From positions 1 to 64,000 of the forward strand of contig NZ_JACJOG010000040.1 in NCBI RefSeq assembly GCF_014695375.1: a stretch of DNA of 64,000 nucleotides, read 5' to 3'. Shown piece by piece: positions 2,980 to 42,287 of the stretch (position 1 is the stretch's first letter; each line of letters opens with the position of its first letter). The notes under the pieces were generated by a model. The model searched no databases and was not told the origin of the DNA. It saw nothing but the letters and a program-made list of their open reading frames with translations. The DNA comes from Coleofasciculus sp. FACHB-T130. Lineage in GTDB: Bacteria; Cyanobacteriota; Cyanobacteriia; Cyanobacteriales; FACHB-T130. The position numbers and the translations under genes were made by a program.

Positions 2980-3454
2980 TTCGATCGTAACGAATTGTTC
3001 ATGGCTGTTCCTTGCAGGGGATCAGCCTATTTACTCTTCTGACTTGTTGCGATCGCACCGGACACTATCAGGAACCGCCTGCTTGTCTGGGTAATGCTAA
3101 CTGTCAAGGAATATATTGTTGTTTACGAGTAGTAACTAGATTTCACTCTCAGGAAGCTTCCGTAAATACTTGATAGAAATGTAGTAATATTTCAAAAAAT
3201 TAAGTAGAAATACTTCGATTAATCGCTCAATAATTTGTTGATTGAAGCAGCCCCAGAGAGCAGATGGAGTATCTAGCTAAGAAAATCAGCAAGATAAAGA
3301 TCCAAATTAAATTTCATAGCTGCTAAATTTCAGTGGAAATGACGTTCTTTTTAATAGCAACGCAGCCATGTTGATAATTAAACTCAACTCAGAAGCGGTT
3401 ATACAGCACCCTGCTTTGGCGTTCGCAGGCTTGCTATGGTGATTTCAGGTAAAT
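2980..3454. other. Divergent intergenic region without a recognisable gene
   Basis: This 475-bp AT-rich spacer separates the minus-strand GH16 gene from the plus-strand GT2 gene and must hold both promoters. I see no tRNA, no strong hairpin and no credible small ORF. One short ORF overlapping the GH16 start is read as a shadow. Confidence 0.4.
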
Positions 3455-4450
3455 ATGAATTCCCACCCTATGACACAGCCCTTTCTGCCCAGGGTTTCCG
3501 TAATTGTCCCTATCTACAATGGTGAGGGGGACTTGCCAGACTTAATCGACTGCTTGCGATCGCAAACTTACCCCGCTGAGTCTGTCGAATATTTGCTGGT
3601 CGATAATAATAGTAGCGATCGCACTGCCACCCTTCTCCAGTCAGCCGCCTCCTCAGCCGCCGCTGACGGCTTAACCATTCGCCCGATTGCGGAAAACCAA
3701 ATCCAAAGCTCTTACGCGGCTCGAAACGCCGGAATTCGGGCATCAACGGCTGAAATTTTTGCCTTTACCGACGCCGATTGTCGTCCTCAACCGCACTGGT
3801 TGGCAGACCTGATTGAGCCGTTTGCCAATCCAACGATTGGCATCGTCGTCGGTGAAATTATGGCATTGCCAGGGAACACCCTGTTAGAACAGTACGCTGA
3901 CCGAGAAAATGTTTTGTCTCAAAAGCATTCTTTAGCAAATCCGTTCTGTCCTTATGGTCAAACGGCTAACTTGGCAATTCGGCGGAAAGCTTTGGAACAG
4001 GTAGGTTTGTTTCGCCCTTATCTAACCACTGGCGGCGATGCTGACATCTGTTGGCGTATCCAACGCGAAAGTGACTGGCAATTGCATTTTGCGCCAACTG
4101 CTATTGTCCGCCACCGTCACCGCTCCACGTTCCAGGAACTTCAAAGTCAATTGCGTCGGTATGGTCGCTCAAATCGATACTTGCACGAACTGCATGGTGT
4201 CAAGCTGACAGCAAACTTGAGTGCAAAGGAATATCTATATCGATTCAGCCGGTGGTTGGTCAAGGAAGTGCCGGTGACAGGTGTGAAAGCGATCGCGGGG
4301 AAAGCCGCGCTTGTAGACTTGTTAAGGACCCCGATTAATTTGATCAATGTCCGCGCGAGAGCCGCAGGGCAAAATGAAGCTAGGCTTCCAGAAGCAGCCA
4401 AAGTAATTGAGTGGCTGGAAAAACCCCAGGATGTGGAAGTAAATCCATGA
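3455..4450 (+). CDS. Glycosyltransferase family 2
   Basis: GT2 enzymes transfer a sugar from a nucleotide donor, usually for surface polysaccharides. The GT-A fold is visible: VSVIVPIYNGEGDL at residues 14-27, VDNNSSDRT at 49-57, the metal-binding TDADC at 105-109, and a GGDADICWR block near 192-200 that serves as acceptor/catalytic region. The C-terminal 100 residues have no clear membrane spans. An ATG at 3470 is an alternative start 5 residues in. The stop TGA overlaps the ATG of the endonuclease V gene (ATGA at 4447-4450), so the two are probably co-translated although their functions are unrelated. Confidence 0.88.
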   Translation: MNSHPMTQPFLPRVSVIVPIYNGEGDLPDLIDCLRSQTYPAESVEYLLVDNNSSDRTATLLQSAASSAAADGLTIRPIAENQIQSSYAARNAGIRASTAEIFAFTDADCRPQPHWLADLIEPFANPTIGIVVGEIMALPGNTLLEQYADRENVLSQKHSLANPFCPYGQTANLAIRRKALEQVGLFRPYLTTGGDADICWRIQRESDWQLHFAPTAIVRHRHRSTFQELQSQLRRYGRSNRYLHELHGVKLTANLSAKEYLYRFSRWLVKEVPVTGVKAIAGKAALVDLLRTPINLINVRARAAGQNEARLPEAAKVIEWLEKPQDVEVNP

Positions 4451-40257: not shown

Positions 40258-41028
40258 TTAACTTTGGTCTTCAAAGTACCTATCAATAATTTCGATTAAT
40301 AAAGTATCTGGACTGACTTCATTTCGGATAGCCAGTTTCTTCACTCTTTGAATATCTGTTGACAACATTTTAATCGGAGAAAAACTTTCAGGAAATGCCC
40401 AAGGACACTGTAAACAGTTAAGCTGGCAGCCACGACAAGCAGTACTTTTAAAGTTATTGCACTCTGCACAAAGAGGTTGCCAGTTATCCTCTTCATTACC
40501 TCCGCCCCTAAGACGCGGAACTTTATGATCTTGATCGAGCCTTACAATTGGGGGTTTTCTAGCACAAACTGCACAACAATTTTGGTATTTGCTCAGAACT
40601 CTTTGCCAAACATCGTTACTAAGTTTTACTCTCTGTTCCCGTTTAGCACTGATTTCTAAGCTGACTAACTGATACCTGGTTGTCTTTCCACTACCAAATC
40701 TAACTATCCCCAAGAAGCCTTCTTCCCCTTGCAACTCTCGTATCCGTCTGGGTACATCTTGATAGGGTTCGCCTACTCCTCTGAAATCATCTATCACTCG
40801 ACGTAAACGCGATAAAGGAACAACTGGCCCTGGTATGCCATGCCCAGGAGGCCATAATGTTTCTAGTACCAGTCTGTAGTAATTTCTATTGGCTGGCTTG
40901 GTGGTAACAAACCCAGTACAGGCATCTCTAAGCCATTCTTCACGCTCAACCTGTTGAAACGTTTGCTCTGGGTTTTGAGAGGGTAACTGAGGTAGTTGCG
41001 CTTCATTAGGAACTTCCCCTTCATTCAT
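40258..41028 (-). CDS. HNH restriction endonuclease of a type II-like R-M system
   Basis: The C-terminal half carries an HNH nuclease: C152-x2-C155, DQDHKVPRLRGGGNEEDNW with the catalytic D167-H168 and N182, and LCAECNNFKS with C187 and C190. A second metal-binding cluster follows (ACRGCQLNCLQCPW). The N-terminal 125 residues are a probable DNA-recognition domain (NYYRLVLETLWPPGHGIPGP). The ATG at 41028 has a strong ribosome site and overlaps the controller stop by 8 bp; the frame extends to a GTG at 41046. Context (XRE controller, divergent m5C methyltransferase) shows it is the cutting half of an R-M system. Recognition sequence unknown. Confidence 0.82.
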   Translation of the reverse strand: MNEGEVPNEAQLPQLPSQNPEQTFQQVEREEWLRDACTGFVTTKPANRNYYRLVLETLWPPGHGIPGPVVPLSRLRRVIDDFRGVGEPYQDVPRRIRELQGEEGFLGIVRFGSGKTTRYQLVSLEISAKREQRVKLSNDVWQRVLSKYQNCCAVCARKPPIVRLDQDHKVPRLRGGGNEEDNWQPLCAECNNFKSTACRGCQLNCLQCPWAFPESFSPIKMLSTDIQRVKKLAIRNEVSPDTLLIEIIDRYFEDQS

Positions 41029-41263
41029 GAGATTTTTCCTCTCCACGCAGCAGCCATTCGGGAGTTACGCCCAATAAACGAGCGATCGCATCTAGCTCAA
41101 AGTCTTTGACTCCACGCTTTTGTCGCTCTATCTCAGAAATATCAGACTGATCGAGCTTTATCTGAAAATCCACAGACAGTGCAGCAGCCAACTCGCTTTG
41201 ATCCCAATCCAGTCTTTCACGAGCCTGTTTAATTCTTAGGCCGCTAATATTTGCATTGCCCAT
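41021..41263 (-). CDS. XRE controller protein of the R-M system
   Basis: An 80-residue Cro/C1-type protein: GLRIKQARERLDWDQSELAA, an interrupted turn (LSVDFQIKLDQSDISEIERQ), then VKDFELDAIARLLGVTPEWL. It is upstream of and overlaps the endonuclease gene, and divergent from the methyltransferase, the standard place for a C protein. Such proteins delay endonuclease expression until methylation is done. A 17-bp palindrome at 41322-41338 in the shared promoter is its probable operator. Confidence 0.8.
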   Translation of the reverse strand: MGNANISGLRIKQARERLDWDQSELAAALSVDFQIKLDQSDISEIERQKRGVKDFELDAIARLLGVTPEWLLRGEEKSHE

Positions 41264-41405: not shown

Positions 41406-42287
41406 ATGCTGAGGGTTGCCTCGTTCTTTGCGGGCATTGGAGGGTTCGATCTAGGCTTTGAAAGAGCCGGAATGAAAGCTGTTTTCCAATGCGAAATTGA
41501 CCCGTTTTGCCAAAAAATCTTAAAACGCCACTGGCCTCAAGTACCGATTCATGAAGACATCACAACCCTCGTTCCTTCAACTATCCCTACCGCTGACTTA
41601 TGGTGTGCCGGATGGCCCTGTCAAGACCTCAGCAATGCCAACACAGAGAGAAAAGGACTTACAGGCCAACGCAGCGGACTCTTCTACAAATTTATGGAAC
41701 TTGTCGGAGAAGTTCACCCAGCGTGGTTGGTCTTGGAAAATGTGCCGGGTTTGCTCTCGGCAGAGCAAGGAACCGCTCTTGAGGCAGTTATCGACACGCT
41801 CGAAACGCATGGGTATTTGGGGGGATGGCTATCGTGTAACGCTCTCCATACGGGCATACCCCACGACAGAGACCGAGTCTTCTTTATCGCAAGTTTTAGA
41901 TCGAAACGTGCCTATCGAATCTTTACTGACAGCCGCGAATTGTCTGGGGATTCTTCGTCGCGAAAATCGAGGGGGACGCAAACTGGATCGAGTGTTTGTG
42001 AAGGCACTATCCCAGACTCTCCGCTTGTGGTACAACGTCGCGGCGGCTTCGGGTACACCTTGGCAAAAAGCATCTGCCCCACGTTACGTGCCCAAACTGG
42101 AGGACATCAAGGAGGTCATTCAGACAGACCAATTCTCTGTGGCGAGAAACTTGACGTGGACAGAGTGGGAAAAGTTAATGGGGTTTCCTCCCGGATGGAC
42201 GGTCGTAGAGGGAGACTCCTTGGCAACGCTATCGTCCCTGCGATCGCAGAATGGATTGGAAGAAAAATTATAGAGGTCGAAACCTAG
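41406..42287 (+). CDS. DNA cytosine-5 methyltransferase
   Basis: The protective half of the R-M system. Motif I is VASFFAGIGGFDLGFERAG at 4-22; the catalytic Cys is in GWPCQDLSNA; motif VI is LENVPGLLS; motif VIII is GIPHDRDRVFFIAS; motif X is RLLGNAIVPAIAEWIGRKI near the end. Between VIII and X lies a short, polar target-recognition region of about 90 residues (SICPTLRAQTGGHQGGHSDR). At 293 residues it is compact but has the expected order. A 240-codon ORF in the +1 frame covers most of it. The ATG at 41406 starts just before motif I and follows GGGGATGAGTTA. Confidence 0.88.
   Translation: MLRVASFFAGIGGFDLGFERAGMKAVFQCEIDPFCQKILKRHWPQVPIHEDITTLVPSTIPTADLWCAGWPCQDLSNANTERKGLTGQRSGLFYKFMELVGEVHPAWLVLENVPGLLSAEQGTALEAVIDTLETHGYLGGWLSCNALHTGIPHDRDRVFFIASFRSKRAYRIFTDSRELSGDSSSRKSRGTQTGSSVCEGTIPDSPLVVQRRGGFGYTLAKSICPTLRAQTGGHQGGHSDRPILCGEKLDVDRVGKVNGVSSRMDGRRGRLLGNAIVPAIAEWIGRKIIEVET
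41551..42273 (+). CDS. Out-of-frame ORF inside the methyltransferase gene, 240 aa
   Basis: Open for 240 codons in the +1 phase relative to the methyltransferase, ending 14 bp before its stop. It does not look like random shadow sequence: residues near 110-135 (ESSLSQVLDRNVPIESLLTA, ANCLGILRREN) and 168-215 (ASAPRYVPKLEDIKEVIQTD, ARNLTWTEWEKLMGFPPGWT) have normal protein composition. The last block is like the xxGFPxGWT segment seen near motif IX of some cytosine methylases. The methyltransferase frame itself has no such block. It may be an overprinted gene, a product of ribosomal frameshifting, or a shadow with chance likeness. Confidence 0.35.
   Translation: MKTSQPSFLQLSLPLTYGVPDGPVKTSAMPTQREKDLQANAADSSTNLWNLSEKFTQRGWSWKMCRVCSRQSKEPLLRQLSTRSKRMGIWGDGYRVTLSIRAYPTTETESSLSQVLDRNVPIESLLTAANCLGILRRENRGGRKLDRVFVKALSQTLRLWYNVAAASGTPWQKASAPRYVPKLEDIKEVIQTDQFSVARNLTWTEWEKLMGFPPGWTVVEGDSLATLSSLRSQNGLEEKL

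Follow-up and report, generated by a model that had tools for sequence, protein, structure and literature searches.

A 64,000-nucleotide stretch of DNA from Coleofasciculus sp. FACHB-T130 (the window) holds a methyltransferase gene in which a second reading frame stays open over most of the gene's length. Is this +1 frame a by-product of the main frame, or does it encode a protein, and what would such a protein do? The gene and its neighbours are as follows.

41406 to 42287, forward strand: alpha, the main-frame C5 methyltransferase (C5-MTase), 293 aa, with motifs I-VIII and X and no recognisable motif IX
41859 to 41891, forward strand: main-frame motif VIII (PHDRDRVFFIA), where synonymous constraint is partly relaxed (codon identity 0.69 in codons 147-162)
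42210 to 42275, forward strand: main-frame motif X, RGRLLGNAIVPAIAEWIGRKI; the constraint of the main frame alone resumes at codon 269
41021 to 41263, reverse strand: HTH controller-like protein, divergent (HTH_3 2.7e-9; PADLOC Control_protein 1.1e-7)
40258 to 41046, reverse strand: HNH protein, probable cognate restriction endonuclease (HNH 3.4e-9; PADLOC REase_II 1.2e-15)

Judged by its sequence, alpha is a C5 cytosine DNA methyltransferase. It carries motifs I, IV (PCQ), VI (ENV), VIII and X of these enzymes, matches PF00145 (4.8e-46) and M.HhaI (2.4e-36), and has M.HhaI as its closest fold (Foldseek, E 3e-14). The PF00145 match is limited to residues 3-169 and to profile positions 2-166, so that it stops at 166 of 324. 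The AF2 model is confident at residues 1-175 and 275-293, which is where the resemblance in fold lies, and has pLDDT<50 at residues 176-274. Motif IX, which monomeric C5-MTases have in the same polypeptide, was not recognised in the main frame of alpha. The HNH and HTH genes also adjoin most of the homologues, and with an endonuclease and a controller adjacent, the methyltransferase gene would be expected to form the modification part of a Type II restriction-modification (R-M) system. Beside a restriction enzyme, a methylase is unlikely to be dead, and an enzyme of two polypeptides therefore best explains an alpha without motif IX.

A second polypeptide could come from the +1 frame. A reading made from the sequence alone (the sequence-only reading) had described 240 open codons in this frame inside the methyltransferase gene, and these were confirmed as an ORF, beta, lying entirely within alpha.

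41551 to 42273, forward strand: beta, nested +1-frame ORF, 240 aa, ATG start
41551 to 41553, forward strand: ATG of beta, at main-frame codon 49; ATG in 23 of 25 homologues, with no clear Shine-Dalgarno sequence in the window
41814 to 41846, forward strand: constraint island, main-frame codons 137-147, TATTTGGGGGGATGG..., the strongest before motif VIII (codon identity 0.93-0.94)
41881 to 41985, forward strand: conserved element of the nested frame, SLSQVLDRNVPIESLLTAANCLGILRRENRGGRKL, common to the nested ORFs of phage MTases
42139 to 42201, forward strand: motif IX in the +1 frame, VARNLTWTEWEKLMGFPPGWT, matched profile to profile with the canonical phage MTase motif IX
42214 to 42273, forward strand: unconstrained C-terminal tail of beta, where the +1-synonymous fraction is at expectation

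Homologues were gathered with the main-frame protein only, giving 24 near-full-length copies that are 60-88% identical and nearly all cyanobacterial. A further 11 came from whole genomes of the same order, and removal of near-duplicates left 25 non-redundant sequences; many of the homologues are metagenome assemblies. Among the 25, no +1 stop was observed in codons 49-276, against 170 expected (minimum 142 in 200 simulations) under a null that keeps the main-frame protein fixed, resamples codons and treats the sequences as independent, though they are not. The deficit is already complete early in the overlap (none in codons 49-90, where 24 are expected, and none in codons 91-136, where 62 are). 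In codons 1-44 of the same frame, 66 stops were found and 73 expected, thus the resampling null is not grossly off, and the +2 frame of the same genes has 279 stops in codons 49-276 vs 308 expected. Frame-2 stops in close homologues, which the sequence-only reading had named as counter-evidence, were looked for and are absent over the overlap; a single +1 stop in L021 lies at codon 278, in the unconstrained tail.

The substitution patterns indicate that purifying selection acts in both frames over 220 codons. Pairwise differences at the three codon positions show the normal pattern in codons 2-135 (p1/p2/p3 =.163/.074/.369). In codons 165-188 they are.326/.072/.071, where the first base of the main-frame codon is the free one, as required if the +1 frame is read. 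Identical residues share the same codon at a rate of 0.61 in codons 2-120 and again 0.61 in codons 269-292, while the rate is 80-94% in blocks across codons 121-268, save 69% at motif VIII. The test of main-frame synonymous sites proposed earlier was thus carried out, and it revealed strong constraint (about 0.85-0.91 in codons 163-268 vs 0.61 outside). First-position differences that are nonsynonymous in the main frame are silent in the +1 frame in 90, 88, 92, 97 and 95% of cases in successive blocks of codons 49-268, where 78, 66, 71, 76 and 72% are expected. Before codon 45 the share is 37% (56% expected), and the +1-synonymous fraction in codons 269-290 is 0.734 vs 0.739 expected. By this block pattern, selection on the +1 protein spans codon 49 to codon 268. 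Within this interval, codons 181-208 have a +1 identity of 0.868 vs a main-frame identity of 0.505.

The two ends of the selected interval fall at recognisable positions. The last +1 stops just upstream of the beta ATG lie at codons 23-39 in nearly all homologues. The codon 49 position is ACG in the two homologues that depart from ATG, L017 and L021; L017 has an ATG four codons upstream and L021 has a later ATG. Cyanobacteria often lack a Shine-Dalgarno sequence, and we therefore regard the missing one before the ATG in the window as uninformative. At the other end, ...LMGFPPGWTV in the +1 frame closes at codon 268, and the +1 selection stops just after GFPPGWT.

The likeness of the +1 frame to an xxGFPxGWT segment near motif IX, seen by the sequence-only reading, was upheld by profile comparison: +1 residues 196-224 match motif IX of canonical phage methylases with E 1.9e-7, probability 93.7 and 48% identity. 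PF00145 was also matched by every one of the 18 beta-type +1 proteins scanned (best 5e-4); for the window copy the match covers profile positions 184-300. One segment is indeed read in two ways, as ...VARNLTWTEWEKLMGFPPGWT... in the +1 frame and as ...GVSSRMDGRRGRLLGNAIVP in the main frame. Both frames do hold a methylase-like C-terminal block, as had been proposed, but the blocks are complementary rather than duplicates, with +1 supplying motif IX and the main frame motif X; the idea of two alternative full recognition domains was rejected on the same ground. Reading from the main frame to +1 and back spells a canonical methylase, ...SDRPIL-VARNLTWTEWEKLMGFPPGWT-RGRLLGNAIVP. AlphaFold gave no confident fold for beta alone (pLDDT 40), a Foldseek search with this model returned no match, and no relative of beta was found among solved structures.

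Taken together, the locus is very probably a Type II R-M system whose C5-MTase would consist of two polypeptides from one DNA segment, with beta begun at an internal ATG. Overprinting, the first of three origins that had been suggested for the second frame, is supported by the avoidance of stops and by purifying selection in +1 from the conserved ATG at codon 49. Alpha would supply motifs I-VIII, for SAM binding and catalysis, and then motif X. Beta, translated in the +1 frame from the internal ATG at 41551, would bring motif IX, and its helical segment should help to form or hold the target-recognition domain. By analogy with alpha and beta of M.EcoHK31I, the two would assemble into the active enzyme. 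For this organism we infer internal initiation, assembly of the subunits and a need for both.

The beta of M.EcoHK31I is reportedly encoded wholly within alpha in another frame, as Lee, Kam and Shaw are said to have shown experimentally in 1995. The window would share with it this nesting of the gene for the small subunit in an alternative frame of the gene for the large one. M.EcoHK31I is a two-subunit C5-methyltransferase (YGGCCR) with the same split of motifs, I-VIII and X in one subunit and IX in the other, a likeness that was judged by published description. In M.EcoHK31I the predicted target-recognition domain lies in the larger subunit together with motifs I-VIII and X, and only motif IX is assigned to the smaller subunit; that of M.AquI contains motifs IX and X as well as the distal variable region (PMC3404938). 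Unlike M.EcoHK31I, the present system has cyanobacteria and one Pseudomonadota-labelled MAG as hosts, and its beta has 240 codons. M.AquI, a cyanobacterial split C5-methyltransferase, is likewise one C5-MTase made from two polypeptides; in contrast to it, motif X stays in alpha here, beta is nested and the +1 tail is unconstrained. The monomeric phage C5-MTases (phrog_363, phrog_116) have the same alpha architecture and a nested +1 ORF in 18 of 21 examined, but motif IX stays in their main frame, and their nested ORF usually stops short of it.

The viral relatives were sampled by the main-frame N-terminal domain (160 loci fetched, 124 long enough to judge); an earlier viral scan chosen by frame 2 was biased, and the counts here are taken from scans chosen by frame 1. 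A +1 ORF reaching at least 100 codons past PCQ was found in 109 of the 124 viral MTases, and such a +2 ORF in 1 of 124. Four architectures were distinguished: (A) motifs IX and X in the main frame (n=21, nested ORF in 18); (B) EcoHK31I-like, with IX read from an uninterrupted +1 ORF and X from the main frame (n=18); (C) AquI-like, with a main-frame ORF that stops before X and the C-terminal part elsewhere (n=63, nested ORF in 62); and (D) X in the main frame and IX not recognised (n=22, nested ORF in 11). The viral overlap has 1 +1 stop vs 428 expected. Among 61 non-redundant viral sequences the +1 element has an identity of 0.669 vs 0.285 for the main frame, where the main frame alone would give 0.214. 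Presence of the element was the criterion for choosing these 61, and the openness counts over all 124 are less biased. A Shine-Dalgarno match of 5-7 bases at the proper distance precedes 33 of 60 nested ORFs that start 5-24 codons before PCQ, vs 3 of 101 and 0 of 7 control starts, which speaks for an internal start more directly than the window itself does. A further, separate set was selected by the motif X of the main frame (...RVDRLKxLGNAVVPQ in most cases); in it, 6 +1 stops were found vs 79 expected, and most members have a LNPxWVEWLMGFPxGWT-like sequence in the +1 frame. The arrangement in the window is, by these counts, an example of a common one. Where an enzyme has its motif IX in the main frame, the nested product must serve some other purpose.

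Such a purpose bears on whether beta is translated and acts alone, for example as a regulator or DNA-binding protein, while alpha methylates without it. Most phage relatives speak for this, as their nested ORF ends before motif IX, which lies elsewhere, suggesting another role there. For the window family we regard it as unlikely, since alpha is without motif IX, the +1 selection stops exactly after motif IX, and EcoHK31I needs both subunits according to the published record.

A programmed +1 frameshift, near codon 137 or after motif VIII, would instead fuse motifs I-VIII with the +1 C-terminus. The conserved G6 run, TTTGGGGGGATGG, sits in a strong island of synonymous constraint, and a 1-nt deletion at this run in L024 fuses the frames in nature. 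The run is broken in L013 and L021, however, the L024 contig has only 2.7x coverage, and phage relatives bear Shine-Dalgarno sites at nested starts. The hallmark of programmed frameshifting is a second frame constrained only past a conserved slippery site, and here the constraint begins at codon 49: +1 stops are avoided from that codon, far upstream of the G6 run, and +1 purifying selection is already clear in codons 49-136. Openness and constraint from codon 49, long before a useful shift point, are something that frameshifting would not require and internal initiation would. This favours an internal start and disfavours the frameshift that the sequence-only reading had raised as its second option, and we give the frameshift a somewhat smaller chance still than a beta acting alone.

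A reading in which an RNA structure or binding site, and not translation, underlies the synonymous constraint is very improbable. In its favour, the island at codons 137-147 is sharp and its degree of constraint is close to the highest in the overlap, although no known motif lies there in either frame. Constraint on RNA would not, however, lead one to expect 228 codons free of +1 stops, a wobble pattern specific to +1 or a motif IX in that frame. A local RNA role for the island alone is possible. The nucleotide conservation of TATTTGGGGGGATGG...TCGTGTAACGCT (41814-41846) exceeds the obvious need of either frame, and it may be a regulatory RNA element. The third origin proposed, a shadow in which +1 seems conserved only through the main frame, is the least credible of all: the main frame is itself very conserved in codons 209-253, yet it is variable where +1 is conserved in codons 181-208 (0.505 vs 0.868), the codon-resampling nulls were exceeded in every simulation, the phage +1 identity with the main-frame protein fixed is 0.67 vs 0.21 expected, and the positional differences, synonymous constraint, stop deficit and +1-silent changes together exclude it.

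An internally initiated, nested beta also invites an evolutionary account. A nested ORF that was already translated could have captured motif IX by two compensating indels, which would have made beta obligatory. On balance, we lean toward the nested +1 protein being a general and ancient companion of phage-type C5-MTases, with a conserved helical element (SLSxVLxx...LSxKACxGILRRAxxRGKxLP) of its own function, and toward this protein having captured motif IX from the host frame in several lineages, that of the window among them, and become an obligatory second subunit. A general description of the nesting was sought in the open-licence literature, where the EcoHK31I precedent was the only one found; within that literature, the breadth of the nesting and a second function of the nested product look unreported. 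Proof of long same-strand overlaps between bacterial genes is rare, and annotation pipelines remove such overlaps as a matter of routine. In the present gene the ends of selection are sharp and match a start codon and a catalytic motif, and the locus offers a concrete case of an enzyme motif moving from one frame to another within its gene. Should beta be essential, many of the methylases annotated without a motif IX would be half an enzyme, not broken or odd ones. And if the nesting is as widespread as the viral counts imply, a conserved family of phage proteins would have gone unnoticed inside a well-known gene.

Several further observations were made on related loci. Many phage C5-MTases are split in the AquI manner (L123-L282, e.g., L146, L160, L204), with motifs I-VIII followed by a stop in the main frame, and the part with IX and X in the +1 frame often starts near M..LWFTKSRRAQ. 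One methylase region in L187 uses three frames: frame 0 encodes motifs I-VIII, +1 carries the nested element, and the recognition part, which includes IX and X, is read in +2. The short frame-0 ORF of L187 is also present in L190 and L195. The family phrog_16143, which spans 139 positions and bears the label DNA methyltransferase, gives a match to the nested element with E down to 1.2e-10, which indicates that some annotators already call the nested ORF, its nesting unremarked. The dmt gene of phage P1 (H95, AF234173) also contains the nested element, and its record labels the gene 'incomplete'.

Among the homologues of the window, L025, L026 and L027 are broken copies of the locus (internal deletion or truncation), suggesting that the system was lost in some lineages. 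In L024 (positions 3001-3872), a low-coverage MAG, the 1-nt deletion lies in TATTTGGGGGG and joins the N-terminus to the +1 frame, with both C-terminal frames still open; it is possibly an error. Phase variation between two C-termini, an idea taken from L024, was rejected, because motif VIII would be missing from the fusion and coverage of the contig is low. The genome of the window has a second C5-MTase on contig C14 (L029), with 41% identity in the N-terminal part and a +1 frame that is open over the full length and contains repeated SPTP motifs and a NWMGFEQDYT segment.
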